Assembly: GCF_002277895.1 (NCBI RefSeq)
Contig: NZ_CP023000.1
Span: 1,116,001-1,180,000 of the forward strand
Length of the DNA: 64,000 nucleotides
Reading direction: 5' to 3'
Source: Rhizobium sp. 11515TR
GTDB lineage: Bacteria; Pseudomonadota; Alphaproteobacteria; Rhizobiales; Rhizobiaceae
In this document: piece after piece, positions 42,489-63,580 of the stretch
Layout: every line of letters starts with the position of its first letter
Position numbering within the stretch: position 1 is the first letter of the stretch
Position numbers and translations under genes: made by a program
The notes under the pieces: generated by a model
The model's input: the letters and a program-made list of their open reading frames with translations, nothing else
What the model was told of the DNA's origin: nothing
Database searches by the model: none

Positions 42489-43354
42489 TAGTTCTCCCGC
42501 TTGAGGCTGCTCTCATGCCAGCGATGCAGGCTCAGCCATGAGATGAAGGAGGTAAAGGCGAAGATGGCGACGCCGAGCGCCGACAGGAGAAGCAAGGCTG
42601 CGAAGAGCCGCGGCATGTTCTGGCGGTATTGCGCCTCCAGCAGGCGGAATGCCAGGCCGGAGTTCGGACCGCCCGAGCCGGCGGCGAATTCCGCGACCAC
42701 CGATGCGATCAGCGACAGGCCGCCGCCTATCCTCAAGCCCGTCATGAAATAAGGCTGGGCTGCCGGCAGCTTCAGATGCAGCAAGGCCTGCCAGCGCGAG
42801 GCGCCGTAGAGATCGAAGAGGTTGAGCAGATTATGGTCGACGCTCTTCAATCCCTGCACCATGTTGGAGAGGATCGGAAAGAAGGCGACGAGGAAGCCGC
42901 AAATTAAGAGCGCTGCTTCGCGCGTCGGCGCATAGATCAGGATCAGCGGCGCGATCGCCACGATCGGCGTCACCTGCAGGATGACGGCCAGCGGATAGAA
43001 GGCGAGTTCGATCCAGCGGGACTGCACGAGGAAGATCGCAAAGCCGACGCCGCCGATCAGCGCCAGGATCAGCGATATGAAGGTGATCTCGGTGGTCACC
43101 CACAGAGCCGGCCACAAGATGCCCCAGTCGGAAACGAGCGCCTTGGCGACGGCGATCGGGCTTGGCAGAATATATTGCGGAATCTCGGTGCCGACGACCA
43201 GAAGCTGCCAGAGGACAAGAAGCGCAAGGACGGTCAGGATGGGCACGAAGATGCCGAGCGCACGTTCGATGCTGCGCTTCCTGGCTGCGGGGGCTGCAGG
43301 CGCATTGGCCGATTCAATGGAAAGAGTGGTGGGCAGGCTGGTGCTGTCGCTCAT
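42488..43354 (-). CDS. ABC transporter permease, SsuC/TauC/ThiX type
   Basis: 288 residues with about six membrane segments and the EAA-type loop LLNLFDLYGASRWQALLHLKLPAA (in part: YGASRWQALLHLKLPAA). The start is the ATG at 43354, which overlaps the ATPase stop (ATGA); a frame to 43411 lies within the ATPase gene. Channel for the NMT1-type importer. Confidence 0.9.
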   Translation of the reverse strand: MSDSTSLPTTLSIESANAPAAPAARKRSIERALGIFVPILTVLALLVLWQLLVVGTEIPQYILPSPIAVAKALVSDWGILWPALWVTTEITFISLILALIGGVGFAIFLVQSRWIELAFYPLAVILQVTPIVAIAPLILIYAPTREAALLICGFLVAFFPILSNMVQGLKSVDHNLLNLFDLYGASRWQALLHLKLPAAQPYFMTGLRIGGGLSLIASVVAEFAAGSGGPNSGLAFRLLEAQYRQNMPRLFAALLLLSALGVAIFAFTSFISWLSLHRWHESSLKREN

Positions 43355-44178
43355 CAATGGGCCTCCCGCCAGCCGATGGCTTCGATCAGGGAACGGGACA
43401 CTTTTTCGCACACCTGCCGATACTCTTCAGACGAACGATAAAGAGGATCGCGCTCGCCGCTGGTTTTCAGCGGAAAATCGCTATGAACACGGCCGGGCCG
43501 TGCCTTCATGACGACGATACGATTGGAGAGATAGGCGGATTCATAGACGGAATGCGTGACGAAGATGACGGTGATGCCGGTCTTCTGCCAAAGGCTGAGA
43601 ACATCGTCGTTCAGTTTCTGTCGGGTAATTTCGTCGAGGGCCGCAAAGGGCTCGTCCATCAAAAGCAGCTTCGGTTTGGTTACCAGAGCGCGAGCGATCG
43701 AAACCCGCATCTTCATGCCGCCCGACAATTCGCGGGGATAAGCTTGCGCAAAATCCTGGAGGCCGACGGTTGCCAGCGTTTCCATGATCTGATCGTGTGC
43801 CACCGCTTTCGACACGCCCCTGAGCTTCAGCGGCAGATGGACATTGCCAAACACAGTCTTCCAGGGAAGCAGCGTCGGCTCCTGGAAAACGAAGCTGATA
43901 TCGCCCTCCGGCAGACCCTTGGCGTTGATGCGCGAACTGGGCCAATCGATCCTGCCGCTCGAAGCGCCGCCAAGGCCTGCAATGATCCGCAAGGCCGTCG
44001 ACTTGCCGCAACCGGAAGGGCCGAGCAGGCTGATGAACTCGCCGTTTTCCACATGGAGCGACATGCCCGATAGCGCCAGCGTGCCGTTGGAGAAGACCTT
44101 GGAGATCTGTTCCATGACGACGAGCGGCCGCTTGCGCGTCTCGGTTTGGGTGGATTTGGTAGCTTCGGACACTGGCAT
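43354..44178 (-). CDS. ABC transporter ATP-binding protein, SsuB/TauB type
   Basis: 274 residues. Walker A LLGPSGCGKST (about residues 51-61), signature LSGGMKMRVSIARAL, Walker B LLLMDEPFAALDEI and H-loop FVTHSVYESAYLSNR. It energises uptake with the adjacent SsuC-like permease. A RIME-like palindrome separates it from the upstream binding-protein gene. Confidence 0.92.
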   Translation of the reverse strand: MPVSEATKSTQTETRKRPLVVMEQISKVFSNGTLALSGMSLHVENGEFISLLGPSGCGKSTALRIIAGLGGASSGRIDWPSSRINAKGLPEGDISFVFQEPTLLPWKTVFGNVHLPLKLRGVSKAVAHDQIMETLATVGLQDFAQAYPRELSGGMKMRVSIARALVTKPKLLLMDEPFAALDEITRQKLNDDVLSLWQKTGITVIFVTHSVYESAYLSNRIVVMKARPGRVHSDFPLKTSGERDPLYRSSEEYRQVCEKVSRSLIEAIGWREAH

Positions 44179-44198
44179 GGTTTAGCTCTTTGTTGATC

Positions 44199-44322
44199 CA
44201 CCCTCCCCTTGAGGGGGAGGGTCGGAGCGAAGCTCCGGGGCGGGGTGATCTGTTGCTATCTCAGGCTATCACCCCCACCCGCCGCTTTGCGGCGACCTCC
44301 CCCCTCAAGGGGGGAGGTGCCT
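44199..44322. repeat. RIME-like palindromic element, copy 2, inside the NMT1-type importer operon
   Basis: It contains CACCCTCCCCTTGAGGGGGA at the left and ACCTCCCCCCTCAAGGGGGG at the right, each self-complementary, and the outer arms pair with each other across about 80 nt. GCGGGTGGGGG/CCCCACCCGCC-type inner pairing is also present. It fills the gap between the binding-protein and ATPase genes and may change the ratio of their products. Confidence 0.7.
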
Positions 44323-44326
44323 AGGC

Positions 44327-45343
44327 TTACTTCTTCAGCGACATGCCGATGCCCTTGCAGACGAACTGCGTGTCGAAGGCCTTTTTGTAATCGATGTCGG
44401 CATCGAAAAGCTTGATCTGCACCATCTCGTCGAAGAACTTCTTGTAGTGGGCTTCGGTGATGCAGCCGATGCCTTTGTCGAGTGCATCGCCGGATTCCAC
44501 GATGCCATATTCCTTCATCTTGGCGATAGAATAAGCGATCTGGCCATCCGTCATATCGGGATTGTCCTTCTTGATCAGCTCGTTGGCCGCCTTATTGTCG
44601 CCGTAGAGGTAGTTGTACCAGCCCTCGATCGAGGCATTGACGAAGCGTTGCACGAGATCGGGGTTCTTGTCGACCAATGCCTTCTGCGCGGTGATCATCG
44701 TCGAATAGGGCGAATAGCCGGCGTCGGCGATCAGGAAGACTTTCGGCTTCCAGCCGGCCTGCTTTTCGATCTCATAGGGTTCCGAGGTTACGTAGCCCTG
44801 CTGTGCGGACTGTTTGTCTGCCAGGAATGGCGCCGGGCTGAAATTATAGGGCTTGAACTGTTCGTCCTTGAAGCCCGGGAAGTTGGCCTTCATCCACTCG
44901 AAATAGGTGATGTAGCCGTCCTTGCTCAGGAAAAGCGTCGGCAGCTTGGCAAGATCCTCGAATTTTTCCACGCCGGCATCCGGATGGGCGATCAGCACCT
45001 GCGGGTCCTTCTGAAAGATGGCCGCGACATCCACGATCGGAATGCCCTGCTTGACCGCATCGATCTCCTGCTGCGGGCCGCCCATATAGAAATCCAGCTT
45101 GCCGGAGATCAGCAATGCCGAATTGGCCGCGTTGGGGCCGCCCTGGACGATCGTGACATCAAGACCGTATTTCTTGTAGGTGCCGTCGGCGACCGCCTGG
45201 TAGAAGCCGCCGTGCTCGGCCTGTGCAAGCCAGTTCGTGCCGTAGCTGACTTTGTCGAGCGCATTTGCAGGTTCGGCGGCCATGATCGCGGCGGCAAGCC
45301 CCATGGCGGCAAAGAATGTTTTTGTCTTCAAGGCTTTATACAT
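44327..45343 (-). CDS. NMT1/THI5-like periplasmic binding protein of an ABC importer
   Basis: 338 residues. Signal peptide MYKALKTKTFFAAMGLAAAI, cut after about residue 28 (ANA). Mature features are VSYGTNWLAQAEHGGFYQAV, DVTIVQGGPNAANSALLISG and DFYMGGPQQEIDAVKQGIPI (in part), typical of proteins binding pyrimidine-like or other small heterocycles. It is the first gene of an operon with ATPase, permease, CodA-like deaminase, FAD oxidoreductase and flavin reductase. Divergent from a LysR gene with an inverted-repeat site between. Confidence 0.88.
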   Translation of the reverse strand: MYKALKTKTFFAAMGLAAAIMAAEPANALDKVSYGTNWLAQAEHGGFYQAVADGTYKKYGLDVTIVQGGPNAANSALLISGKLDFYMGGPQQEIDAVKQGIPIVDVAAIFQKDPQVLIAHPDAGVEKFEDLAKLPTLFLSKDGYITYFEWMKANFPGFKDEQFKPYNFSPAPFLADKQSAQQGYVTSEPYEIEKQAGWKPKVFLIADAGYSPYSTMITAQKALVDKNPDLVQRFVNASIEGWYNYLYGDNKAANELIKKDNPDMTDGQIAYSIAKMKEYGIVESGDALDKGIGCITEAHYKKFFDEMVQIKLFDADIDYKKAFDTQFVCKGIGMSLKK

Positions 45344-45424
45344 GGCTGACTGTTCCCCTTATCTGCCATGGGACGTCGTGGTTGGCGCCCATTTCCTGCA
45401 TTTGAGCGGTTGCTTTGCTGTTTG

Positions 45425-45466
45425 AAAAGCATCAAAATTCGTGCGCATTGATGCCTTTTCGGCATC
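45425..45466. promoter_or_regulatory. LysR-type binding region between importer operon and LysR gene
   Basis: GCATCAA (45429-45435) and TTGATGC (45448-45454) form a perfect 7-bp inverted repeat. GATGCC (45450-45455) and GGCATC (45461-45466) form a second with a 5-nt spacer, containing ATGCC-N5-GGCAT, a T-N11-A LysR box. This gives three GCATC half-sites in 42 bp. A matching AAAGCATCAA also occurs upstream of the creatininase-family gene (47343-47352). Confidence 0.55.
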
Positions 45467-45527
45467 TGTTCCCGGGTCTGTGCCTAAATTGTGCGGTCTG
45501 GGCAAAAATTAAGCAATGGGGACACGC

Positions 45528-46496
45528 ATGCTGCACTCGCGACGGCTTCTCTATATCAATGAAATCGCCCGCTGCGGCTCGATCCGCAAGGCTGCCGCGC
45601 GCCTCAACGTGGCCTCATCGGCGATCAACCGGCAGATCCTGGCGCTGGAGGAGGAAATGGGCGCGCCGCTTTTCGAACGGCTGCCTCGCGGGCTCAGACT
45701 GACGGCGGCCGGCGAGCTCTGTATCGAGCACATTCGCGAGGTTCTGAAGAATTACGAGCGGCTGGAGGGCCGCATTCGCAGTCTCAAGATGCAGCAAGCG
45801 GGCAAGGTTCGTATCGTTGCCACCGTCGGACTGGCCTCAGGTCCACTGCCCGAGATCATCGCGCGTTTTCTTTCCGAGCATCCAAGGGTCTTCGTCCAGC
45901 TGCGCAATGATGCCGGATCGACGACGATGGCGCCGGTCGTCTCCGGAGAAGTGGATCTCGGACTTGGCTTCAACATTCCGGCCATGCCGGGCATTCGCTC
46001 CCTTGTCAATTTCGACATACCGATCGGCGTCGTCCTGCCGCCCGGCCATCCGCTGATCGGGCCCGGGCCCATCAATCTCGCCGATGTCGTAGAGGAGCGG
46101 CTATTGCTTGCGCAGCCCGGGACGAGCCTGCGCGAGGTCATCAATCTGATGCTGGCGCGCCTTTCCGTGCAGGTCGAACCGGTGCTGGAGAGCAATGCGT
46201 CGGAAATGTTGAAGCAGCTGGTAAAATGCGGAGCAGGGCTGACATTGCTCAATCCGCTCGATGTGCTGACGGAGTGTCGCCGGGGAGAGCTGGTCTTCCG
46301 GCCGATCGCCGAGCCGCATTCGCGGCCTCAACCGATGAAACTCATCGCCCGCGCGCGAGCACCGCTCGATGCCGCCACCAGCCTTTTCGTCGAATATCTG
46401 CTTGCTGAATTGGCGGGGATCGTCGAGGAGCTGCAGGCGAAGGGACATATCATCCCGCCCTCTGAGCGACGCCGCGCGGACGCCTATTTCGAATAG
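45528..46496 (+). CDS. LysR-family transcriptional regulator
   Basis: 322 residues. Winged helix (RLLYINEIARCGSIRKAAAR, then VASSAINRQILALEEEMGAP) and an effector domain (VRIVATVGLASGPLPEIIAR; VDLGLGFNIPAMPGIRS). The ATG at 45528 has GGGGAC about 5 nt upstream; the ATG at 45516 is also in frame. It is divergent from the importer operon, and its 3' end overlaps the convergent creatininase-family gene by 13 nt. It probably controls both. Confidence 0.86.
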   Translation: MLHSRRLLYINEIARCGSIRKAAARLNVASSAINRQILALEEEMGAPLFERLPRGLRLTAAGELCIEHIREVLKNYERLEGRIRSLKMQQAGKVRIVATVGLASGPLPEIIARFLSEHPRVFVQLRNDAGSTTMAPVVSGEVDLGLGFNIPAMPGIRSLVNFDIPIGVVLPPGHPLIGPGPINLADVVEERLLLAQPGTSLREVINLMLARLSVQVEPVLESNASEMLKQLVKCGAGLTLLNPLDVLTECRRGELVFRPIAEPHSRPQPMKLIARARAPLDAATSLFVEYLLAELAGIVEELQAKGHIIPPSERRRADAYFE

Positions 46497-47287
46497 AGGT
46501 TGGCAAGCGGGTAGTCGCGCAGATCCCGCAGCATCTCGATGAAGCCTGCGATCTCATGGCTGCAGATGAGTGCGCCCTTGTCCGCCGTGCCATTGGCCGC
46601 ATTACCGACCACACCGTTCGGATTGAGATCATGCGCGATCCAGGCGAGCGAATGCGGCGGCAAAGGCTGCAGATATTTCGAATGCTCCGTCATCCATTCC
46701 GCCTTGGAGGCGAAATTCTCAGCCTTTTCCATCCGGACCAGATCAGGCCGGAAATGCAGCATGAGCGAGGTCTCGACGTCGCCGCCATGGATGCCAAAGC
46801 GCTGCTCGTGCTCGTCGATCATACCATCAGGCGTACCGAAGCGCGTCCATTGCGTGGCGACCACGGCCATCTGGTAACGCACGCGCAGTTCGCGCGCGAC
46901 GATGCTCATGATATCCACATTTCCGCCGTGGGAATTGACGATCACCATTTTGCGGATGCCTGCTTCAGCGACCTTCGCGCCGATCGCGGTCCAGACCGGG
47001 ATCAGCAACTCTGCGCTCAGCGACAGCGTGCCAGGGCCGTAGACGTGTTCGTTGGCCTTGCCGATCTCCTGCAGCGGAAGGACGAGGAAATCGAGATCGT
47101 CCGGGCGCTGGACCCTCAACTCGGCCAGCATGCCCTCGGCGATCGCGACATCCGTGGCAATCGGCAGATGTGGACCGTGTTGCTCCGTCGAGGCGATCGG
47201 CAGGATCGCGATGGTGGTATCGGGCGAGAGACCGGCGAAATCATAGGTGTTGAGTTCATTCCAATAGAAGGGCTTCGTCATTGCCAT
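46484..47287 (-). CDS. Creatininase-family metal-dependent amidohydrolase
   Basis: 267 residues. Metal-binding motifs are IASTEQHGPHLPIATDV (about residues 31-47), VIVNSHGGNVDIM (115-127) and GIHGGDVETSLML (about 165-177), all conserved. The family opens cyclic amides (creatinine to creatine) or removes formyl groups from pyrimidine intermediates. Next to a CodA-like deaminase and NMT1-type importer, a role in creatinine or pyrimidine-like catabolism is plausible. Its 3' end overlaps the LysR gene on the other strand. Confidence 0.87.
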   Translation of the reverse strand: MAMTKPFYWNELNTYDFAGLSPDTTIAILPIASTEQHGPHLPIATDVAIAEGMLAELRVQRPDDLDFLVLPLQEIGKANEHVYGPGTLSLSAELLIPVWTAIGAKVAEAGIRKMVIVNSHGGNVDIMSIVARELRVRYQMAVVATQWTRFGTPDGMIDEHEQRFGIHGGDVETSLMLHFRPDLVRMEKAENFASKAEWMTEHSKYLQPLPPHSLAWIAHDLNPNGVVGNAANGTADKGALICSHEIAGFIEMLRDLRDYPLANLYSK

Positions 47288-47504: not shown

Positions 47505-48428
47505 TCACGGCCGATGCAGGACATGCGCGGCCTTCACTGCCGCAGATGCGCGGTTCTCGACACCGAGCTTCACATAGATTTGTTCCAGATGCTTGTTCAC
47601 CGTGCGGGCCGAAAGGCCGAGGATCTCGCCGATGTCGCGGTTCGACTTGCCCTTGGCAAGCCATAGCAGCACCTCGGATTCGCGCTGCGTCAACGCAAAG
47701 CTCTGACGCAAGGTCTCGTCATCGGCGCTCTGATTGCTCGCCGTCAGGCGAAAGAGATATTCGTCGGCGCCGATGGCGCCGAGGAAGGTGAATTGCAACG
47801 CGGCCTGACGGCCATTGCTGATGGAAAGAAGATTGTCGCGTGCCGGGCCGAGCCGTTCGCGCTCGAGCATGAAGGCGGCGATGTGTTTGGATGCCAGTTC
47901 GAGGCCGTCGTCACTACCGGTGGCGGCGTTGATCAGGCGGGTTGCCTGCGGGGTAGACCAATGGATGGCGCCGTTGCCCTTCACGGCAAGGAGATGGCGT
48001 CCCGCCGCATCGAGCGCCACCCTGGCGCTCTGGGCGGAGCGGGCATTGCGCAGGTGAACGCGGATGCGGGCACGCAGCTCGTCGACATTGATCGGCTTTG
48101 TCAGATAATCGACGCCGCCCGATTCAAGCGCATGCACCACATGTTCGGTTTCGGTGAGCCCGGTCATGAAGACGACGGGAATCTGGGCAATGCCTGCATT
48201 GGCTTTCAGCCGGCGGCAGGTCTCGAAACCATCCATTGCCGGCATGAGGGCATCGAGCAGGATAAGATCGGGCGTGATGCGCTCGACGATGTTGAGTGCC
48301 GCCGAGCCAGAGGTGGCAATCAGCACGGAGAAGCCGGACTGCTCGAGCGCATCCGTCAGGAAGCCGAGCGCCTCCGGTGAATCATCCACCAGCAAGACTA
48401 TGTCGCGGGGAAGGGCGGGCTCAGCCAA
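47505..48428 (-). CDS. Response regulator, FixJ/NarL-type output with central PAS-like segment
   Basis: 307 residues. The receiver domain (~8-125) has acidic residues in VLLVDDSPEA, phospho-acceptor aspartate in LILLDALMPAMDG (near residue 58), threonine in VVFMTGLTE and lysine in YLTKPIN. Residues ~135-235 resemble a PAS domain (AIHWSTPQATRLI...). The C-terminal LuxR helix-turn-helix is LTQRESEVLLWLAKGKSNRD, then LSARTVNKHLEQIYVKLGV. The ATG lies within the last codons of the hybrid kinase gene (8-nt overlap), so kinase and regulator are made together. Confidence 0.9.
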   Translation of the reverse strand: MAEPALPRDIVLLVDDSPEALGFLTDALEQSGFSVLIATSGSAALNIVERITPDLILLDALMPAMDGFETCRRLKANAGIAQIPVVFMTGLTETEHVVHALESGGVDYLTKPINVDELRARIRVHLRNARSAQSARVALDAAGRHLLAVKGNGAIHWSTPQATRLINAATGSDDGLELASKHIAAFMLERERLGPARDNLLSISNGRQAALQFTFLGAIGADEYLFRLTASNQSADDETLRQSFALTQRESEVLLWLAKGKSNRDIGEILGLSARTVNKHLEQIYVKLGVENRASAAVKAAHVLHRP

Positions 48429-51400
48429 TCTGTTCTACCTTTTCCATGTCGAAGCTGCGCAGCACGTTTAGAAAACTATCGAGATCGAAGGCCTGGACGT
48501 GCGCACGCAAGACGTCGACGAAGGGTTTGTTTTCCTCCAGCTTGGCGAGATCCGCAAGCTTTGCCTCTATGCCTCTGATATAGCCGATCTCGCCGAGTCG
48601 TTTGAGCTCGCGGACATGCTCAATGCCAGGGCTCTTCAACGGCGGTGGCGGCTTTGATGCAACCGGCGCCGATGCATCGGCATAAATCCATTGCAGCCCG
48701 AGATGCAGCGCGAGTTTGTCGCGAAGCTGGCGGATGTCGACCGGTTTGGAGATGGCGTCATTATGGCTGTCGTCGCTGTCGGTCGCCGCGGCGGCATCGC
48801 CGATATTGGCCGACAGCATCAGGATCGGCGCGGTCTGGCCGTTCTCTCTAAGCCGGGAGACAAGCTGCCAGCCATTCATGCCCGGCATGGAGATATCGAC
48901 CAGGAACAGATCCGGCTTGATGCCCTCGATCAGCGTCAGGCAGTCCGGCCCGCCGGCGGCGGTGAGCACGATGAAATCGAGTGGCGACAGGATCTCGCGC
49001 ATCAGCTCGCGGTGATCTTCATTGTCGTCGACGACAACGATGGTGCGACGCGGCCCTTCGTAACCCGTAATACGCTGCTCCTGAGCCGGCGGTTTCATCG
49101 GCCGGATCACGGCCGACAGCATCAGGCGCACCCGAAAGGTCGAGCCGACGTCTTTTTCGCTTGTGACAGAAATCTCGCCGCCGAGCGTATTCGTCAGCAG
49201 CTGGGTGATTGTGAGACCAAGGCCAAGCCCCGGCATGGGTCTGACGCTATCGGCCTCGCCGCGCTGGAAGGGCTCGTAGATACGCGTGATATCTTTCGCC
49301 GCAATGCCGCGGCCGGTGTCCGAAACCGTGAAGGTCGCGACCTGGTTTCTGTAGCCCACCTCGAAGCGGACGGTGCCTGCATCGGTGAACTTGATGGCGT
49401 TGGAGAGCAGGTTGACGAGGATCTGCCGCAGCCGCTTCTCGTCGGTGCGGACATAGTCGGGCAGTGCGGCGGAACGTTCATGGATGAAGCTTAACCCTTT
49501 GGCCTGCGCCTGAGGCTGGAACATGTCGACGATCTGGTCGAGGAAGTCGTGAATATTAATCTCGTTGGAATAGACCTGCAGACGGCCGGCCTCGATCTTC
49601 GATATATCCAGCAGCCCGTCGATCAGACCCGACAGATGCTCGGCGCTGCGCCGGATGACCTTCAGCGAGGATTGCCGGGGTGCCGGAATGGTCTCGTCGC
49701 GCTCCAGAATTTGCGCATAGCCGAGCACGGCATTGAGCGGCGTGCGCAATTCGTGGCTTAAGCCGACCACGTAGCGGCTCTTGGCGCGGTTTGCCGCCTC
49801 TGCTGCCTCCTTGGCGCCCTGCAGAGCGGCATCCGTCTTCTTGTGGGCGGCAATTTCCTTCAAGAGCAGCGTGTTCTGACGCGAGGATTCCTCTTCGGCG
49901 ACAACGCGGCTGTCATGGGCAAGCACATAGAACCAGCACGCGACGCCGGCGATGACGGCAAAGACGAAGAAGACGATGAGGATCGTGCGGTCGACCACGG
50001 CGGCGGTCTCGGGAGAGGCTGCGCCCACCTGATGCGCGATCATTGCTAGAATAGCGCCCATGGCGGTCAGCGCCACGGCGACGGCAATGCCGTAGCGGCC
50101 GAGGCGCGTAGCGAGCTTGGCGACGATACTTTCCGGCAGCAAGGTCTTTGCGACCGTGCCAACCTGCGTATTGAGCCGAGCCTTCGGCTTGCACATGTCA
50201 TGGCAGCGGCTGTCGAGTGAACAGCAGAGCGAGCAGATCGGCGCGGCATAGGCCGGACACCATGCCATGTCCTCCGGCTCGAAGGGGTGTTCGCAGACCG
50301 AACAGGTGATGGTGCTTAGATTCTTCCAGCTCTGGCGCGGCTTGCGGGCGAGATAGTATTTGCCCTTGGTGATCCAGGCGATGGCAGGCGAAGCGATGAG
50401 CGCGACGATCAGGGTGATATAGGGCGCAAGCGATGCGGCAATCGAACCGAAAGCGCCGAAATGCGTGATGAGAGCGATGGTTGCCGAAAGCGCCATGGCG
50501 CCGAGGCCGACCGGATTGATGTCGTAGAGATGCGCGCGTTTGAACTCAATGCCAGGAGGAGCCAGCCCGAGCGGCTTGTTGATGAAAAGATCGGCGGAGA
50601 CGGTGCAGAGCCAGGCCATGGCGATGATCGAGAAGATGCCAAGCGTCTCCTCCAGCAGCCGGTAGATGCCAAGCTCCATCAACAAGAGCGCGATGGCGAC
50701 GTTAAAGACCAGCCAGATAACGCGGCCTGGATGGCTGTGCGTCAGCCGCGAAAAGAAGTTCGACCAGGCGAGCGAGCCGGCATAGGCGTTCATGACGTTG
50801 ATCTTCAGCTGCGAGACCATCACGAAGGCGGCCATCAACAGCAATGCTGCGTTGTGCCATGGGATCATGTAGCCAAAGGCGGTCAGATACATCTGCGCGG
50901 GATCGGCGGCGCGGTCGGCCGGCACGCCTGACGTCAGCGTCAGGACGACGAGGAAAGAGCCGGCCAGCAGCTTCGGCGCCCCGATGATGACCCATCCGGG
51001 TCCGGCGAGGAAGATGGCCAGGCGATGGCGCCATTTGCGGTGACCTTCCGGCGGCAGGAAGCGCAGGAAATCGGCCTGTTCGCCGATCTGCGACATCAGC
51101 GCCAGGATGACGGCGGAAGCCGCGCCGAACTCCACCAGATCGAAAGGAGCGGCGTTACCCGGCGCGCTTGCGGGATGGTGAATGCCGGCAAAGGCCCGCC
51201 AGAGGTCGAATTTTTCCCAATCGGCAAAGGCGATGAAAACGAAGGGCAGGATGTTGAGAACGATCCAGAAGGGCTGCGTCAGCAGCTGAAACCGGCTGAT
51301 GAGACGCACGCCGTGGGTGACGAGCGGGATCACCATGAGGGCGCTGACGATGTAGCCGATCCAAACGGGTATGCCGAGCGTCAGCTCCAGTGCTCCGGAC

Positions 51401-51810
51401 ATGATCGAGGCTTCGATCGCAAACAGCATGAAGGTGAAGCTGGCATAGATCAGCGAGGTGATGGTCGAGCCGATATAGCCGAAGCTCGCGCCGCGCGTCA
51501 GAAGATCGATATCGACGCCATGACGGATCGCATATCGGCTGATAGGCAGGCCGACGGCGAGCATGGCGAGGCTTGCGACGATGATGGCGTAGAAGGCGTT
51601 GGTGGTGCCGTAGGAGAGCGTGATCGTGCCGCCGATCGCCTCCAGCGCCAGAAAGGAAATGGCACCGATCGCGGTTTGCGAGATGCGTTGCGAGGAAAAC
51701 TGGCGAGCGCTCTTGGCGGTGAAACGCAAGGCATAGTCTTCCAGCGTCTGGTTTGCGACCCAGCGATTATATTCGCGTCTTACCGGAATGATGCGTTGCC
51801 GCGCAGCCAT
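48421..51810 (-). CDS. Hybrid histidine kinase fused to an NCS1-type permease domain
   Basis: 1129 residues. Residues ~1-480 form a 12-segment NCS1-like (nucleobase/cytosine/allantoin) transporter (YALRFTAKSARQFSSQRISQ; SFGYIGSTITSLIYASFTF in part). Residues ~498-545 hold eight cysteines (CSVC...WC...ICSLCC...C...C), a probable metal site. Two more membrane segments lie at ~570-640, then a coiled coil, HisKA with phospho-histidine in GLSHELRTPLNAVLGYAQIL (near 686), HATPase (LVNLLSNAIKFT, SDTGRGIA, GLGLGLTI), a receiver (aspartate in FLVDISMPGMNG, near 971) and an ~80-residue tail. It probably senses or transports a nitrogenous solute and signals to the downstream regulator; it is divergent from urtABCDE. 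Confidence 0.88.
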   Translation of the reverse strand: MAARQRIIPVRREYNRWVANQTLEDYALRFTAKSARQFSSQRISQTAIGAISFLALEAIGGTITLSYGTTNAFYAIIVASLAMLAVGLPISRYAIRHGVDIDLLTRGASFGYIGSTITSLIYASFTFMLFAIEASIMSGALELTLGIPVWIGYIVSALMVIPLVTHGVRLISRFQLLTQPFWIVLNILPFVFIAFADWEKFDLWRAFAGIHHPASAPGNAAPFDLVEFGAASAVILALMSQIGEQADFLRFLPPEGHRKWRHRLAIFLAGPGWVIIGAPKLLAGSFLVVLTLTSGVPADRAADPAQMYLTAFGYMIPWHNAALLLMAAFVMVSQLKINVMNAYAGSLAWSNFFSRLTHSHPGRVIWLVFNVAIALLLMELGIYRLLEETLGIFSIIAMAWLCTVSADLFINKPLGLAPPGIEFKRAHLYDINPVGLGAMALSATIALITHFGAFGSIAASLAPYITLIVALIASPAIAWITKGKYYLARKPRQSWKNLSTITCSVCEHPFEPEDMAWCPAYAAPICSLCCSLDSRCHDMCKPKARLNTQVGTVAKTLLPESIVAKLATRLGRYGIAVAVALTAMGAILAMIAHQVGAASPETAAVVDRTILIVFFVFAVIAGVACWFYVLAHDSRVVAEEESSRQNTLLLKEIAAHKKTDAALQGAKEAAEAANRAKSRYVVGLSHELRTPLNAVLGYAQILERDETIPAPRQSSLKVIRRSAEHLSGLIDGLLDISKIEAGRLQVYSNEINIHDFLDQIVDMFQPQAQAKGLSFIHERSAALPDYVRTDEKRLRQILVNLLSNAIKFTDAGTVRFEVGYRNQVATFTVSDTGRGIAAKDITRIYEPFQRGEADSVRPMPGLGLGLTITQLLTNTLGGEISVTSEKDVGSTFRVRLMLSAVIRPMKPPAQEQRITGYEGPRRTIVVVDDNEDHRELMREILSPLDFIVLTAAGGPDCLTLIEGIKPDLFLVDISMPGMNGWQLVSRLRENGQTAPILMLSANIGDAAAATDSDDSHNDAISKPVDIRQLRDKLALHLGLQWIYADASAPVASKPPPPLKSPGIEHVRELKRLGEIGYIRGIEAKLADLAKLEENKPFVDVLRAHVQAFDLDSFLNVLRSFDMEKVEQIG

Positions 51811-52039
51811 GCTTACCCTTCAGCAGTCCCGCCATCGTCATCTTGGCAGCCGGAAGACGTCGTAACATGGATCGATATCGCGCTTAAGGGCATCGGAGTG
51901 CCTAAAGCTGCACATTTCGCCCCGGCGCCTACGTCATTTTACGTATGTGGTTTCCCGAAGGAGCGCCGGATAGTCGCGGAAGGCAGCGGCTAATCCTTGT
52001 TTACCGGCCGTTGCGGCAGACAAAAGAGGGGAACCACGG
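51811..52039. promoter_or_regulatory. Divergent control region between permease-kinase and urtA
   Basis: 229 bp. It contains TACGT (51930-51934) and ACGTA (51941-51945), a perfect inverted repeat with a 6-nt spacer. Its TACGTA-like character recalls FixJ-type sites. It is centred about 100 bp upstream of urtA, suitable for activation by the adjacent LuxR/FixJ-type regulator. AGAGGGG lies before the urtA ATG. Confidence 0.45.
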
Positions 52040-53329
52040 ATGAAATTCAAGACTCTCGTCTCCGGCGCGCTGCTCGGCGCCATCATGTCCACCACAGCAT
52101 TCCACGGCGCTTTCGCAGCCGACGACACCATTAAGGTCGGCGTCCTGCATTCGCTGTCCGGCACCATGGCGATCTCGGAAACGACGCTCAAAGATGCCAT
52201 GCTGATGCTCATCGATGAGCAGAACAAGAAGGGCGGTGTTCTCGGCAAGAAGCTCGAGCCCGTCGTCGTCGACCCGGCCTCCGACTGGCCGCTCTTTGCC
52301 GAAAAGGCCCGCGAACTCATTCAGAAGGACAAGGTCTCCGCCGTGTTCGGCTGCTGGACCTCCGTGTCGCGCAAGTCGGTGCTGCCGGTCTTCAAGGAAC
52401 TGAATTCGATCCTGTTCTATCCGGTGCAGTTCGAAGGCGAAGAGTCCGAGCGTAACGTCTTCTACACCGGCGCCGCCCCGAACCAGCAGGCAATTCCTGC
52501 CGTCGACTACCTGATGAAGAACGAAGGCGTGCAGCGCTGGGTGCTTGAAGGCACCGACTATGTCTATCCGCGCACGACCAACAAGATCCTCGAAGCCTAT
52601 CTGAAGTCCAAGGGCGTCAAGGACGAAGACATCATCATCAATTACACGCCGTTCGGCTTCTCCGACTGGCAGACGGAAGTCTCCAAGATCAAGGCTTTCG
52701 GCGCGGCCGGCAAGAAGACCGCCGTCGTTTCCACCATCAACGGCGATGCCAATGTTCCCTTCTACAAGGAACTCGGCAACCAGGGCGTCAAAGCCGAAGA
52801 TATTCCGGTCGTCGCCTTCTCGGTCGGCGAAGAAGAGCTTGCCGGCGTCGATACCAAGCCGCTTGTCGGCCATCTCGCCGCCTGGAACTACTTCCAGTCT
52901 GTCGACACGCCCGCCAACGCCGCTTTCATCAAGGAGTGGCATGCCTACACCAAGAACGACAAGCGTGTGACCAACGACCCGATGGAAGCTGCCTATATCG
53001 GCTTCAACATGTGGGTGAAGGCTGTCGAGAAGGCCGGCACGACCGATCCGGACAAGGTGATCGACGCGCTCGTCGGCGTGTCCGTTCCGAACCTGACGGG
53101 CGGCTATGCCACCATGATGCCAAACCATTACATTACCAAGCCGGTCCTGATCGGCGAAGTGCAGGAAAACGGTCAGTTCGACGTCGTTTCGCAGACCCCG
53201 GCCGTGGTCGGCAAGGAATGGTCCGACTATCTGCCTGACAGCAAGGACTTGATCTCGGATTGGCGCATGCCGCTGAACTGCGGCAACTTCAACGTCACCA
53301 CCGGCAAGTGCGGCGGTAAGGGCTCCTGA
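52040..53329 (+). CDS. urtA: Urea ABC transporter, substrate-binding protein
   Basis: 429 residues. Signal peptide MKFKTLVSGALLGAIMSTTA, cut near residue 29 (AFA). The mature start TIKVGVLHSLSGTMAISETT and AVFGCWTSVSRKSVLPVFKE, FYPVQFEGEESERNVFYTGA are characteristic of UrtA/FmdD-type binding proteins. It captures urea in the periplasm at low concentration. First gene of a complete urtABCDE set, 67 bp before urtB. Confidence 0.94.
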   Translation: MKFKTLVSGALLGAIMSTTAFHGAFAADDTIKVGVLHSLSGTMAISETTLKDAMLMLIDEQNKKGGVLGKKLEPVVVDPASDWPLFAEKARELIQKDKVSAVFGCWTSVSRKSVLPVFKELNSILFYPVQFEGEESERNVFYTGAAPNQQAIPAVDYLMKNEGVQRWVLEGTDYVYPRTTNKILEAYLKSKGVKDEDIIINYTPFGFSDWQTEVSKIKAFGAAGKKTAVVSTINGDANVPFYKELGNQGVKAEDIPVVAFSVGEEELAGVDTKPLVGHLAAWNYFQSVDTPANAAFIKEWHAYTKNDKRVTNDPMEAAYIGFNMWVKAVEKAGTTDPDKVIDALVGVSVPNLTGGYATMMPNHYITKPVLIGEVQENGQFDVVSQTPAVVGKEWSDYLPDSKDLISDWRMPLNCGNFNVTTGKCGGKGS

Positions 53330-53396: not shown

Positions 53397-55022
53397 ATGT
53401 TCGACAAATTCGTTTACCGCATCGCCCTGGCGCTGGTCGCCGGCTTCTGCCTGGTGTTGGCGCTGACGGCCACAGGTCTGCGCGCCCAGGAAGACGCCCA
53501 CGGCCTGATCAATTCCCTCGGCCAGGCCAATTTCCAGAAGGCCGGGGATATCGTCCAAAGCCTTGCGAAGTCAGGCGATCCAAAAGTGGTGCCGGCATTG
53601 CAGGCCTTCTCCGACGGCGATCTCTACGTCAGGAAATCCGACAATCAGGTGTTCATCGCCAAATCCTCCGGCGACATGATGGATCTGGTGGATCCTTTGA
53701 CCGGGCAAGCGGCCGGTCAGGAAGCCAAGGACAATCTCGGCAAGATCAAGATCAACAACAATCTGCGCCGTGCGGTTCGCGCGGCTCTCGGCGGTCTGAC
53801 GCTGATGAGCCCGGATCGCGCGACAAGGCTCGAGGCGGCGCAATCCATTCTGAAGGCACCGAGTGCGGATTCGCTCGACGCAGTCGAGACGGCGCTACAG
53901 AGCGAGAAGGACGCGGACATTCGTGGTGTGCTTGAACGCGCAAAAGCGGTTGCCGTGCTCGGCTCGGACCGCCCGATCGAAGACAAAAAGGCAGCGATCG
54001 AGACGATCAAGAACGAAGGCGGCCGCGATGCCATCGGCATTCTCTCGTCGGTTTCCGTCGATGACAGCTTGAAGCCTGATGTCGCAGCCGCCATCGCCGG
54101 CATCCAGGATCAATTGAAGTTTTGGGATGCGGTGCAAAATGTCTGGTACGGCCTGTCGCTCGGCTCCGTGCTGCTGCTGGCCGCCATCGGCCTTGCGATT
54201 ACCTTCGGTGTCATGGGTATCATCAACATGGCGCATGGCGAGATGGTGATGCTCGGCGCTTACTCGACCTTCGTCGTTCAGAGTATCATCCGCACCTCCT
54301 ATCCCGAACTCTTCGACTGGTCGCTGGCGATCGCCCTTCCGGTCGCGTTCGTCGTCACAGGCGCTGTCGGCCTCGTCATCGAACGCGGCGTCATCCGCTT
54401 CCTTTACGGCCGACCGCTGGAAACGCTGCTCGCCACCTGGGGCATTTCGCTGATCCTGCAGCAGGCGGTGCGCTCGATCTTCGGGCCGACCAATCAGGAA
54501 GTCGGCAACCCCTCCTGGATGTCGGGTTCCTTCGACCTCGGCTATCTCTCCATCACCTGGAACCGGCTCTGGATCATCGTCTTTTCGCTCGGCGTGTTCG
54601 TAGCGCTCCTGCTTCTTCTCAAGCGATCGGCCTTCGGGCTGCAGATGCGGGCAGTGACGCAGAACCGGCGCATGGCGTCCTCCATGGGCATCCGCACATC
54701 GTGGGTCGACGCCTTCACCTTCGCGCTGGGGTCTGGCATCGCCGGCATGGCGGGTGTCGCGCTCTCGCAGATCGACAATGTCTCGCCGAACCTCGGCCAG
54801 AGCTACATCATCGACAGTTTCATGGTCGTGGTGTTCGGCGGTGTTGGCAATCTCTGGGGGACGCTCGTCGGCGCCTTCTCGCTCGGCATTCTCAACAAAT
54901 TCCTTGAGCCCTATGCGGGAGCGGTGCTCGGCAAGATCCTCGTCCTCGTCCTCATCATCCTCTTTATCCAGAAACGTCCGCGCGGGCTCTTCGCCCTCAA
55001 GGGAAGGACGGTGGAAGCATGA
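53397..55022 (+). CDS. urtB: Urea ABC transporter permease UrtB
   Basis: 541 residues. A signal-like N-terminal segment and an extracytoplasmic domain (~30-235, helical) precede a LivH-type permease domain (WYGLSLGSVLLLAAIGLAIT; GVMGIINMAHGEMVMLGAYS; FGGVGNLWGTLVGAF). The long N-terminal extension is normal for UrtB and absent from LivH. The stop overlaps the urtC start (ATGA). Confidence 0.93.
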   Translation: MFDKFVYRIALALVAGFCLVLALTATGLRAQEDAHGLINSLGQANFQKAGDIVQSLAKSGDPKVVPALQAFSDGDLYVRKSDNQVFIAKSSGDMMDLVDPLTGQAAGQEAKDNLGKIKINNNLRRAVRAALGGLTLMSPDRATRLEAAQSILKAPSADSLDAVETALQSEKDADIRGVLERAKAVAVLGSDRPIEDKKAAIETIKNEGGRDAIGILSSVSVDDSLKPDVAAAIAGIQDQLKFWDAVQNVWYGLSLGSVLLLAAIGLAITFGVMGIINMAHGEMVMLGAYSTFVVQSIIRTSYPELFDWSLAIALPVAFVVTGAVGLVIERGVIRFLYGRPLETLLATWGISLILQQAVRSIFGPTNQEVGNPSWMSGSFDLGYLSITWNRLWIIVFSLGVFVALLLLLKRSAFGLQMRAVTQNRRMASSMGIRTSWVDAFTFALGSGIAGMAGVALSQIDNVSPNLGQSYIIDSFMVVVFGGVGNLWGTLVGAFSLGILNKFLEPYAGAVLGKILVLVLIILFIQKRPRGLFALKGRTVEA

Positions 55023-56179
55023 TCACGGCCTTCATCCTTCGCTCGCTCGACCGCCGTATCAGTATCGCCATCGCGATCCTGCTTGCCGTGGCGGTGCTCG
55101 TGCCGCTGTCGAACCTGGTTCTGCCGGAAACGAGTGCGTTGCATGTGCCGACCTATCTGATGTCGTTGTTCGGCAAATATCTGACCTATGCACTGCTCGC
55201 CTTGGCGCTCGATCTGGTCTGGGGTTATTGCGGCATTCTCTCGCTCGGCCATGGCGCCTTCTTCGCGCTTGGCGGCTATGCGATGGGCATGTATCTGATG
55301 CGACAGATCGGCTCGCGCGGCACATACGGCAATCCGATCCTGCCTGACTTCATGGTCTTTCTGAACTGGAAGGAGCTGCCTTGGTTCTGGTACGGCTTCG
55401 ACCAGTTCTGGTTCGCCATGCTGATGGTGCTCGCAGCACCCGGCCTGCTCGCCTTCGTTTTCGGTTGGTTTGCCTTTCGCTCGCGCGTCAACGGCGTCTA
55501 TCTGTCGATCATCACGCAGGCGATGACCTATGCGCTGCTGCTTGCATTCTTCCGCAACGACATGGGTTTCGGCGGCAATAACGGCCTGACCGATTTCAAG
55601 GATATTCTCGGCTTCAATATCCAGGCCGATGGGACGCGCGCGGTGCTTTTTGCCGTGACGGCGGTGTTCCTGGCGCTGGCATTGATGCTGTCTTCGGCCA
55701 TCGTCCGCTCGAAGTTCGGCAAGGTGCTTGTGGGCGTGCGCGATGCGGAAAGCCGCACGCGTTTCCTCGGCTATCGTGTCGAGCATATGAAGCTCTTCGT
55801 CTTCGTCGTATCGGCCATGATGGCGGGCATTGCCGGCGCGCTCTACGTGCCGCAGATCGGCATCATCAATCCCGGCGAGTTTGCGCCGGCCAATTCGATC
55901 GAAGTGGTCATCTGGACGGCCGTCGGCGGGAGAGCGACCCTGATCGGACCGATCATTGGTGCCATCCTCGTCAATGGCGGCAAGACCATCTTCACCGGTC
56001 TGTTCCCCGATTTCTGGCTGTTTGCGCTTGGCGGCCTCTTCGTGGCCGTGACGCTATTCCTGCCGAGGGGCATCGTTGGTACCATCGCGCACTATTTCGG
56101 CAAGACACGCCGGCCGGCAAGCCCGCCGCCCAAGGCCGCGAAGGATGAAGCCGACAAGTCCGTACAGGCGGCGGAGTAG
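55019..56179 (+). CDS. urtC: Urea ABC transporter permease UrtC
   Basis: 386 residues, LivM-type permease with about ten hydrophobic segments. LVWGYCGILSLGHGAFFALG, YLSIITQAMTYALLLAFFRN and VGVRDAESRTRFLGYRVEHM are typical, and a W/F-rich insertion (NWKELPWFWYGFDQFW) distinguishes UrtC. Translationally coupled to urtB. Confidence 0.93.
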   Translation: MITAFILRSLDRRISIAIAILLAVAVLVPLSNLVLPETSALHVPTYLMSLFGKYLTYALLALALDLVWGYCGILSLGHGAFFALGGYAMGMYLMRQIGSRGTYGNPILPDFMVFLNWKELPWFWYGFDQFWFAMLMVLAAPGLLAFVFGWFAFRSRVNGVYLSIITQAMTYALLLAFFRNDMGFGGNNGLTDFKDILGFNIQADGTRAVLFAVTAVFLALALMLSSAIVRSKFGKVLVGVRDAESRTRFLGYRVEHMKLFVFVVSAMMAGIAGALYVPQIGIINPGEFAPANSIEVVIWTAVGGRATLIGPIIGAILVNGGKTIFTGLFPDFWLFALGGLFVAVTLFLPRGIVGTIAHYFGKTRRPASPPPKAAKDEADKSVQAAE

Positions 56180-56183
56180 GACC

Positions 56184-56939
56184 ATGATCCCGGATATCAA
56201 ACCCAACAGCATGCTCTATCTCAACAACGTCTCCGTTTCCTTCGATGGCTTCAAGGCTTTGAACTCGCTGTCCATCGTCATCGAGCCGGGCGAGCTTCGC
56301 GCCATCATCGGCCCGAACGGCGCTGGCAAGACCACGATGATGGACATCATCACCGGCAAGACCCGGCCCGACGAGGGCGAGGTGTTCTTCAACGGCCAGG
56401 TCGACCTGACGAAAAAGGATGAGGCCGATATCGCCCAGCTTGGCATCGGCCGGAAGTTTCAGAAGCCGACCGTCTTCGAAAGCCATACCGTCTGGGACAA
56501 TCTCGAACTGGCGCTCAACCGCAATCGCGGCGTCTTCGCGACGCTCTTCTACCGCCTGACGCCTATCGATCGCGATCGTATCGAAGAGATCCTCGAAACG
56601 GTGCGGCTGTCGCATCGGCGCGATGAGCTGGCGGCCAATCTTTCCCACGGCCAGAAGCAGTGGCTGGAGATCGGAATGCTGCTGGCACAAGAGCCGAAGC
56701 TGCTCTTGGTCGACGAGCCGGTAGCAGGCATGACGGACGCCGAGACGGCGGAAACCGCCGTGCTTTTGAAGGAAATCGCCAAGACGCGCTCTGTCGTCGT
56801 GGTTGAACACGACATGGGCTTTATCAGGGATCTTGGTGTCAAGGTCACGTGCCTGGCGGAAGGATCGGTTCTGGCGGAAGGCTCGATCGATTTCGTCAGC
56901 AGCGATCCGAAGGTGATCGAGAATTATCTGGGGCGCTAG
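56184..56939 (+). CDS. urtD: Urea ABC transporter ATP-binding protein UrtD
   Basis: 251 residues, LivG-like. Walker A IIGPNGAGKTTMMDIITGKT (about residues 40-59), signature LSHGQKQWLEIGMLLAQEPK (the variant LSHG is normal here) and Walker B LLLVDEPVAGMTDAE. The ATG at 56184 follows the urtC stop by 4 nt; frames extending upstream lie in urtC. It pairs with UrtE. Confidence 0.93.
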   Translation: MIPDIKPNSMLYLNNVSVSFDGFKALNSLSIVIEPGELRAIIGPNGAGKTTMMDIITGKTRPDEGEVFFNGQVDLTKKDEADIAQLGIGRKFQKPTVFESHTVWDNLELALNRNRGVFATLFYRLTPIDRDRIEEILETVRLSHRRDELAANLSHGQKQWLEIGMLLAQEPKLLLVDEPVAGMTDAETAETAVLLKEIAKTRSVVVVEHDMGFIRDLGVKVTCLAEGSVLAEGSIDFVSSDPKVIENYLGR

Positions 56940-57102: not shown

Positions 57103-57130
57103 CTTGAAGGAAAAGAAAGAAGATGAAGCC

Positions 57131-57826
57131 ATGCTGACAGTCGAAAACGCAAACCTGCATTATGGCGCCGCTCATGCGCTGCGCGGCATCTCCATCAAGG
57201 CAGAGATGGGCAAGATCACCTGCGTCCTCGGGCGTAATGGCGTCGGCAAGAGTTCGCTCCTGCGTGCGGTCACCGGGCAACATGCCTTGTCGGCCGGCAC
57301 CGTTGCCTTTAACGGCGTCACGCTGAACGGCATGGCGCCGTTCGCGCGCGCCAAGCAGGGGATCGGTTATGTGCCGCAAGGCCGCGAGATCTTTCCGCTA
57401 CTGACGGTGAAGGAAAATCTCGAGACCGGCTATGCGCCGCTCTCCCGCCGCGATCGCAGCATTCCGGATGACATCTACAGTCTGTTCCCCGTTTTGAAAT
57501 CCATGCTGTCGCGGCGTGGTGGCGACCTCTCGGGCGGACAGCAGCAGCAACTGGCGATCGGCCGGGCGATGGTGACGCGGCCGAAGATCCTGGTTCTGGA
57601 CGAGCCGACCGAAGGCATTCAGCCGTCGATCATCAAGGATATTGGCCGCGCGATCCGCTATCTCAGGGATTCCACCGGCATGGCGATCCTGCTCGTCGAG
57701 CAATATCTCGATTTCTGCCGCGAGCTCGCCGATTACGTCTACATCATGGATCGCGGCGAGATCGTGCATGAGGGGCTGGCGGAGACGCTGGATACACCGG
57801 AGGCCCGCCGCCATCTGACTGTCTGA
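57131..57826 (+). CDS. urtE: Urea ABC transporter ATP-binding protein UrtE
   Basis: 231 residues, LivF-like. Walker A VLGRNGVGKSSLLRAVTG (about residues 31-48), Q-loop YVPQGREIFPLLTVKENLET, signature LSGGQQQQLAIGRAMVTRPK and Walker B LVLDEPTEGIQPSII. The ATG at 57131 is used; a TTG at 57104 in frame lies against the repeat. Last gene of urtABCDE. Confidence 0.93.
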   Translation: MLTVENANLHYGAAHALRGISIKAEMGKITCVLGRNGVGKSSLLRAVTGQHALSAGTVAFNGVTLNGMAPFARAKQGIGYVPQGREIFPLLTVKENLETGYAPLSRRDRSIPDDIYSLFPVLKSMLSRRGGDLSGGQQQQLAIGRAMVTRPKILVLDEPTEGIQPSIIKDIGRAIRYLRDSTGMAILLVEQYLDFCRELADYVYIMDRGEIVHEGLAETLDTPEARRHLTV

Positions 57827-60415: not shown

Positions 60416-60424
60416 GGGTAAAAC

Positions 60425-63400: not shown

Positions 63401-63580
63401 GGCAGCCAAAACTCGATCGGCATCGGCGTCATGGGCGGCATGATCTCGGCGACCGTGCTCGGCATTTTCTTCATCCCGCTGCTTTTCGTTTCCGTCCGCC
63501 GTGTCTTCAAGGGCAAGAGATCGACTGATGCAACGGGGCAAGAACCGGACGTTGCCGCCGCAACGCCGGATACGCCGTAG
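60425..63580 (+). CDS. RND multidrug efflux permease, HAE1 (AcrB-like)
   Basis: 1051 residues, full length. The N-terminus [20 protein letters not shown] and [20 protein letters not shown] are typical HAE1. TM4 carries the paired proton-relay aspartates in [20 protein letters not shown] (about residues 406-425). The second half has [20 protein letters not shown] and [20 protein letters not shown]. It exports drugs, bile-like compounds or plant antimicrobials, driven by protons. Co-transcribed with the adaptor; no adjacent TetR-type regulator is seen. Confidence 0.95.

Follow-up and report, generated by a model that had tools for sequence, protein, structure and literature searches.

A permease-fused hybrid histidine kinase in Pseudomonadota with an NCS1-like domain, a conserved link to urea and short-amide genes and a predicted operator tracking urtA

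The DNA analysed here is a stretch of 64,000 nucleotides (the window) from Rhizobium sp. 11515TR (contig NZ_CP023000.1, positions 1,116,001 to 1,180,000), and the gene in question encodes a hybrid sensor kinase lying between the gene of its response regulator and a divergent urtABCDE cluster. Positions are those of the window and residue numbers those of the 1129-residue kinase chain; the features are collected in Table 1. This single chain joins a 12-helix NCS1-like permease, an eight-cysteine module, a two-helix membrane hairpin and a HisKA-HATPase-REC unit, an architecture which a first-pass annotation had read from the letters and which is confirmed by domain search and fold comparison. 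The catalytic motifs of HisKA, HATPase_c and REC are all present, as befits a hybrid histidine kinase, and the gene is a single copy in its own genome.

Table 1. Features of the kinase locus, by position in the window
Feature	Position	Strand	Basis
Cognate response regulator, REC and LuxR-type HTH, overlapping the kinase stop	47505..48428	-	Domain scan; same-strand neighbour in 51/53 diverse loci
Hybrid sensor kinase with N-terminal NCS1-like permease domain, 1129 aa	48421..51810	-	ORF, domain search and fold comparison
Receiver domain (REC), residues 924-1033	48712..49041	-	Pfam scan and alignment
HATPase_c, residues 789-898	49117..49446	-	Pfam scan and alignment
HisKA, residues 677-742	49585..49782	-	Pfam scan and alignment
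Two-helix membrane hairpin, residues ~569-631	49918..50106	-	
Eight-cysteine module, residues 503-540, predicted treble-clef/cross-brace zinc finger	50191..50304	-	Alignment and model
Permease domain, residues ~20-490, 12 helices, LeuT/NCS1 fold	50341..51753	-	Profile alignment and fold comparison
Predicted operator ATACGTAAAATGACGTAG, consensus ATACG-N8-CGTAT, one mismatch; 94 bp before the urtA ATG, 119 bp before the kinase ATG	51929..51946	-	
urtA, divergent from the kinase	52040..53329	+	TIGR03407 over cut-off
urtB	53397..55022	+	TIGR03409 over cut-off
urtC	55019..56179	+	TIGR03408 over cut-off
urtD, listed ORF; family match from residue 46, true start probably downstream	56076..56939	+	TIGR03411 over cut-off
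urtE	57104..57826	+	TIGR03410 over cut-off

The gene neighbourhood was surveyed in 60 fetched stretches, of which 53 with a kinase above threshold were counted and seven without one were set aside. Open reading frames (ORFs) were picked mechanically, so that some starts are too long, and the rule for calling a gene divergent missed two loci (L154 and L177). The coupling of kinase and response regulator, proposed earlier for the window, recurs as a directly following same-strand regulator gene in 51 of the 53 diverse loci. Urea or short-amide genes adjoin the kinase in 48 of them: UrtA is encoded in 42 (upstream of the kinase and oriented away from it in 37), the formamidase FmdA in 35 and the aliphatic amidase AmiE in 14. 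Six of the 11 loci without UrtA carry urease or formamidase genes instead, the kinase standing behind UreC (L165) or UreG (L169), divergent from UreB (L172) or UreC (L181), or in company with FmdA (L179 and L180). Allophanate hydrolase is found in L141 and L142, the latter also encoding urea carboxylase. No urea or amide gene link was seen in the fetched stretches of five loci, namely L137-L139 (one genus), L145 and L182 (contig end). When eight of the 14 kinase-bearing genomes recognised later were fetched, the kinase lay beside urt, urease, formamidase or amidase genes in all eight, and in the Rhizobium group the regulator and a divergent urtA are present in 80 of 80 loci. Annotated records from Rhizobium sp. 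T136 and from a Klebsiella pneumoniae plasmid with urtABCDE-amiF agree. The first-pass annotation had pointed to a neighbourhood unrelated to urt genes as an argument against control of urea uptake; the neighbourhood of the homologues is a conserved urea/amide context, and this linkage, together with an operator-like site described below, supports control of the divergent urea importer.

Two further observations concern urtA itself. Within the Rhizobium group, 34 of the 80 loci have a PAP2-type ORF between urtA and the kinase, which are then about 2.3 kb apart (the domain is named in L080, 7917-9944); the other 46 have no such ORF (0/46). The UrtA proteins of the window and of L142, L152, L157 and L178 all pass the TIGR03407 cut-off, and because both UrtA types do so, this profile does not separate urea from amide importers. 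UrtA from the formamidase/amidase clusters of L152, L157 and L178 passes this urea-specific cut-off, and amide importers may thus be annotated as urea importers; a similar caution has been voiced about a cluster in Bradyrhizobium that includes formamidase and amidase genes (PMC3098086).

The operator-like site is a dyad, ATACG-N8-CGTAT. It was scored in the 320 bp upstream of the kinase in 52 loci and the window (n = 53; L182 was left out). With a dyad derived from the same 53 regions, related sequences included, 23 of 53 contain a perfect copy and 33 of 53 a copy with no more than one mismatch, where 200 mononucleotide shuffles lead one to expect 0.33 of 53; at this tolerance it is present in 24 of 34 loci within the class of the organism and in 9 of 19 outside. 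The dyad tracks urtA. In the Rhizobium group it stands between urtA and the kinase in 80 of 80 loci when urtA starts are taken from the alignment (79 of 80 with cruder starts). In all 34 loci with the PAP2-type ORF it lies 90-95 bp before urtA, and in none of them within 350 bp of the kinase; in L149 it is found 87 bp from urtA and more than 6 kb from the kinase. Extra dyads precede allophanate hydrolase (L142, L143), a porin-urtA operon (L141) and fmdA (L167). None of 56 urtA upstream regions from kinase-less genomes carries it, a set which includes four genomes with weak matches but no full kinase (G347, G444, G462, G489). The window contains the 17-base pattern ATACGYNNNNNNRCGTA once, where 0.01 copies are expected, and the 7.07 Mb of the own genome contain it three times, versus 11 times for a control pattern; it is therefore rare and not enriched genome-wide. 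No evident urea link was noticed among the ORF starts inspected by eye around the other matches (L203, L204). In the same genome, the urease region (L206) has no site at one mismatch or fewer, and the FmdA_AmdA region (L207) has one site with one mismatch.

Judged by fold and profile, the permease domain is a divergent relative of the NCS1 family and not a standard Na+-coupled nucleobase carrier. The best fold matches of its 12-helix LeuT-type fold are the NCS1 permeases CodB and Mhp1; hhalign of the domain against six NCS1 sequences gave 95% (E 2.9e-8, 403 columns), and against a PF02133-positive permease an E-value of 1.6e-32. PF02133 itself did not match the kinase at E<=10 with HMMER filters on, and the own-genome search returned none at E<=0.001. 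The reading of the domain as "not NCS1", to which this missing match alone would have led, was overruled by the profile and fold comparison as far as kinship is concerned, not as far as Na+ coupling is concerned.

Pocket residues were mapped by profile alignment and by pairwise alignments to CodB and Mhp1, at about 15% identity, and invariance was counted in an alignment (A1) of 38 kinase sequences, the window's and 37 of 52 extracted. In CodB, sodium is bound by main-chain groups of G29 and F32 (TM1), the carbonyl of N275 and the hydroxyls of T278 and T279 (TM8), and cytosine is held between W108 and F204 (PMC9379551). T278 (S312 in Mhp1) aligns with K336 and T279 with I337 in 38 of 38 relatives, so that by alignment the Na2 hydroxyl ligands on TM8 are not conserved in the kinase family. 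The aromatic pair is not conserved either: the W108 position is Phe in 32 and Leu in 6 of the 38, and that of F204 is L238 of the window in the ungapped D..RF register or M239 in the gapped hhalign register. The residues aligned with CodB D213, R216 and Y285 are D247, R250 and Y343, each of them invariant, and Mhp1 Q121 maps to the invariant E133. Since an invariant lysine sits at a Na2 sodium-ligand position, the domain is probably not Na+-coupled, and since both the Na2 Ser/Thr and the aromatic nucleobase sandwich are lacking, cytosine, allantoin and hydantoin appear less likely as ligands than urea or short amides. From this low-identity alignment, the pocket seems neither sodium-coupled nor built for flat aromatic bases. 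The earlier designation as an NCS1 permease thus holds for kinship and fails for the usual sodium and substrate contacts; loss of such contacts in homologues had been named as evidence against transport-coupled control, and for the Na+ ligands and the aromatic pair this evidence is now at hand.

Relatives of the domain also exist without a kinase. A plasmid search returned WP_069952955.1 from Arthrobacter sp. U41, a protein of 558 residues, 41.9% identical over query residues 20-490, whose gene is followed by those of an aliphatic amidase, an AAA protein and an acetate-CoA ligase (acs). Two Acinetobacter plasmids (L340, L344) share one accession of a stand-alone permease, which heads a urease operon and is annotated as allantoin permease; we regard it as a candidate urea permease. 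Tsukamurella, an actinobacterium like Arthrobacter, encodes a further relative near fmdA. The stand-alone sister permeases are 43-44% identical to the kinase permease domain, and K336, E133, Q241, E244, Q245, D247, R250, N338, N341 and Y343 are kept in all five, whereas residue 57 is Glu (E57) in 38 of 38 kinases and Phe in each of these five. In a FastTree phylogeny of 492 columns, the 32 domains carried by kinases group as a single clade (local support 0.949) with the five stand-alone proteins (1.0) as its sister and a support of 0.944 for the joint clade; L183, L184 and L186 fall outside it.

We consider it probable that the kinase is a urea/short-amide hybrid histidine kinase of the transceptor type, which drives its regulator to activate urt-type genes. 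The NCS1-like domain would bind urea or a small amide in a LeuT-type pocket, and motion or closure of this pocket would reach the HisKA dimer by way of the C-terminal zinc-finger module, the hairpin in the membrane and a long helix. The kinase would then phosphorylate its LuxR-type partner, the internal receiver acting as modulator or relay. The regulator may bind the dyad that lies before urtA and activate the divergent urtABCDE genes, and in other genomes it may likewise activate the porin, formamidase or allophanate hydrolase genes with which the dyad is associated. Na+ coupling would have been lost, as the lysine at Na2 suggests. A wider proposal is put forward tentatively, as a possibility somewhat short of even: that these proteins are a new class of transceptor, widespread in Pseudomonadota and possibly both transporting and signalling, which arose from a new lysine-bearing, Na+-independent clade of NCS1-related urea/amide permeases; that a zinc-finger tail of the permease went from four to eight cysteines on becoming the coupling joint to the kinase; and that a urea/amide regulon is controlled through ATACG-N8-CGTAT.

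Several observations weigh against the sensing of urea or amides and the control of urt genes through this dyad. The assignment of the ligand rests on gene association, and the pocket residues were assigned from a profile alignment with about 15% identity instead of from coordinates. No amide or urea gene is seen near the Streptomyces or the second Arthrobacter permease (two of six neighbourhoods), so that the link is found in four of six neighbourhoods and three of five distinct stand-alone proteins. The 320 bp before the kinase are without a dyad (at most one mismatch) in 20 of 53 loci, 10 of 19 outside the class and 10 of 34 within; three of these (L141, L149, L158) have it before urtA or a porin instead. 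Kinase-bearing genomes also contributed 28 urtA copies without a directly adjoining kinase gene, and only three of these have the dyad. Of the 28, L211, L255 and L256 are no more than about 10 kb away from the kinase, and L257 is perhaps separated from it by nothing but a contig end. Two of the three carriers are L211 and L256, and L256 has a perfect dyad in the genome of L169, whose own kinase upstream region has none. Among the eight new loci, L303, L307, L309 and L310 have the dyad before urt or amide genes and the promoters of the remaining four are without it, a one-mismatch site between urtA and urtB in L308 not being counted. Finally, a perfect dyad precedes the kinase in L137-L139, whose fetched stretches showed no urea or amide gene. 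The dyad-less loci would use either another site or other wiring.

It is unlikely, in our estimate, that the permease domain has lost ligand specificity and instead senses the activity of UrtABCDE, or the general nitrogen or membrane state, through contact with a transporter. The presence of UrtA-type importer genes in most of the loci would fit such contact, and sensors that touch a transporter are known (DctA-DcuS, BceAB-S; PMC11109136), but the mapped pocket residues are invariant in the 38 relatives and recur in the stand-alone permeases, which lack a kinase, and in L172 and L181, where the divergent neighbour is urease, no urt genes were found in the fetched stretch. Slightly less probable still is sensing of a nucleobase, allantoin or hydantoin breakdown product upstream of urea. 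The kinship to CodB and Mhp1 and the label of allantoin permease on some records of relatives speak for it; against it stand the F/L and L residues at the positions of the CodB sandwich, and the genes identified nearby are those of urease, formamidase and amidase, no search having been aimed at purine or allantoin genes. From the nitrogen sources listed in the first-pass annotation (urea, allantoin, cytosine and hydantoin) urea is retained and the nucleobase-type ligands are not supported, and the many formamidase and amidase partners add short amides to the list.

Under the preferred reading, in which the kinase responds to urea or short amides, the cysteine module would have a structural part. 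All eight cysteines are invariant in 38 of 38 relatives, and the proportion of invariant residues is higher in the module (14 of 38) than in the permease (90 of 471). In the predicted model of residues 494-562 (pLDDT 71), a CxxC knuckle and a beta hairpin are seen together with a second CxxC that leads into a helix. Foldseek returned no match for it at E<=0.001, an absence which is uninformative, and the weak matches are mostly RING, PHD, FYVE, LIM and ZZ fingers. A CxxC...CxxC pattern aligned with C503, C506, C526 and C529 is retained in the Acinetobacter and Streptomyces stand-alone permeases, which do not have the full set of the other four cysteines, and is lost in both Arthrobacter proteins and in that of Tsukamurella. 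The module resembles a structural zinc finger that would have come with the permease and would serve for coupling, with two likely zinc sites, one ancestral (C503/C506/C526/C529) and one added in the kinase (C518/C530/C536/C540). The earlier suggestion that it joins substrate sensing to metal or redox state was set aside, the first cysteine set being present in two stand-alone permeases and lost in three. That the module is the real sensor and the permease a membrane anchor is very improbable: the invariance and density of the module favour it, but the 90 invariant residues of the permease core exceed an anchor's need, the first four cysteines come and go in proteins without a kinase, and the weak fold matches are mostly to structural fingers. 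A module search of 398 genomes gave 61 matches, 57 of them in kinase-sized frames of at least 894 residues; one apparent module outside the family (G361) proved on re-examination to be a weak local match alone (E 0.051).

Some variants and neighbours may be recorded. L179 (6998-10947) and L180 (8299-10956) encode a REC-less permease-kinase of 885-894 residues with FmdA in the same stretch, L179 additionally a 422-residue protein of REC plus histidine kinase. L185 (9357-11213) holds a 618-residue relative of the kinase half, an ORF without permease and with the cysteine-rich stretch reduced to a remnant, its regulator being divergent. In the window, a creatininase-family gene, a LysR regulator, an NMT1-type binding protein and an ABC ATPase lie beside the response regulator (43354-47287); this set also occurs in L057 and not in seven other Rhizobium-group loci compared. 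Genes for an RND efflux adaptor and permease lie downstream of urtE (59168-63580).

The kinase can be set against known systems. The SLC5-STAC kinases CbrA, CrbS and RpuS likewise have a transporter domain of LeuT fold fused to a kinase (PMC13022988, PMC5715377, PMC9100948), and CrbS and RpuS are described as hybrid kinases with LuxR-type regulators, like the pair in the window, the target being an imperfect palindrome for CrbR and a conserved motif for RpuR (PMC5715377, PMC9100948). CbrA, moreover, has a lysine, K196, in its Na2 site, comparable to K336 here (PMC13022988). These kinases differ in combining a 13-TM SLC5 domain with STAC and PAS, as against the 12-TM NCS1-like domain, cysteine module and hairpin of the window kinase, and the CrbR motif (e.g. 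TACTACCATCGTCGAAT) differs from ATACG-N8-CGTAT (PMC5715377). The SSF (SLC5) domain gave no match in the kinase at E<=10 with HMMER filters on, and STAC was not named in the Pfam scan or among the 25 NCBIfam matches listed, no search aimed at STAC having been made. CrbS and RpuS are the closest working precedent, with a different transporter family and, in the case of CrbR, another site. The ammonium sensor kinase Ks-Amt5 is also a transporter turned receptor fused to a kinase, for a nitrogen source, but with the Amt fold and ammonium (PMC5764959, PMC8534201). From CodB and Mhp1, its best fold matches, the domain is set apart by K336/I337 at Na2, the lost sandwich and the missing PF02133 match (PMC9379551). 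The metformin transporter MetT is, by its description, an NCS1 member for a small nitrogenous compound other than a nucleobase, as is proposed here for urea or amides; it differs in being stand-alone and in its aromatic cavity of W43, W117 and W231 (PMC13390362). Clusters of the same type have been reported, namely a urtABCDE-like cluster with formamidase and amidase in Bradyrhizobium (PMC3098086) and an fmdA-urt cluster in Ectopseudomonas, where a hybrid histidine kinase and a LuxR regulator are labelled next to urtABCDE (PMC13296017); the portions of the two accounts dealing with these clusters mention no permease domain in the kinase, no operator and no family.

A search of 299 sampled genomes of the phylum with residues 1-660 yielded 45 matches at E<=0.001, of which 38 (about 13% of the genomes, the own included) at E<1e-150. 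In the class sample of 289 genomes, 22 match, 20 of them (own included) strongly and essentially in full (E<1e-190). Rhizobium tropici CIAT 899 has a copy at 97% identity. The first protein search for relatives returned at least 8000 candidates. Some are annotated at source as "signal transduction histidine kinase/purine-cytosine permease-like protein", and the composition has therefore already been noticed by annotation pipelines. Klebsiella accounts for 340 of 515 plasmid records with a relative, and in one record examined, K. pneumoniae CP024508.1 (65008-86295, L313), the kinase-regulator/urtABCDE-amiF cluster lies on a conjugative IncFIB/IncFII plasmid. No description of an NCS1-type kinase was found in the literature searched, which did not extend to subscription papers. 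The family is thus a widespread and, as far as this literature goes, undescribed one of transporter-fused sensor kinases in Pseudomonadota.

Few transporter-fused kinases are known, those met here being of the SLC5 and Amt types, and if the proposed function is correct another transporter family would be added to them. About one in eight of the sampled phylum genomes (38/299) would then have a sensor kinase for a main environmental nitrogen source, and urt, urease and formamidase operons would gain a specific regulator that senses their inducer and has a predicted operator. A testable substrate would become available for a clade of bacterial permeases at present called allantoin permease or hypothetical protein, and the step from carrier to receptor could be tested through the stand-alone and kinase-fused versions of the same permease, in which Phe and E57 occupy the same position.

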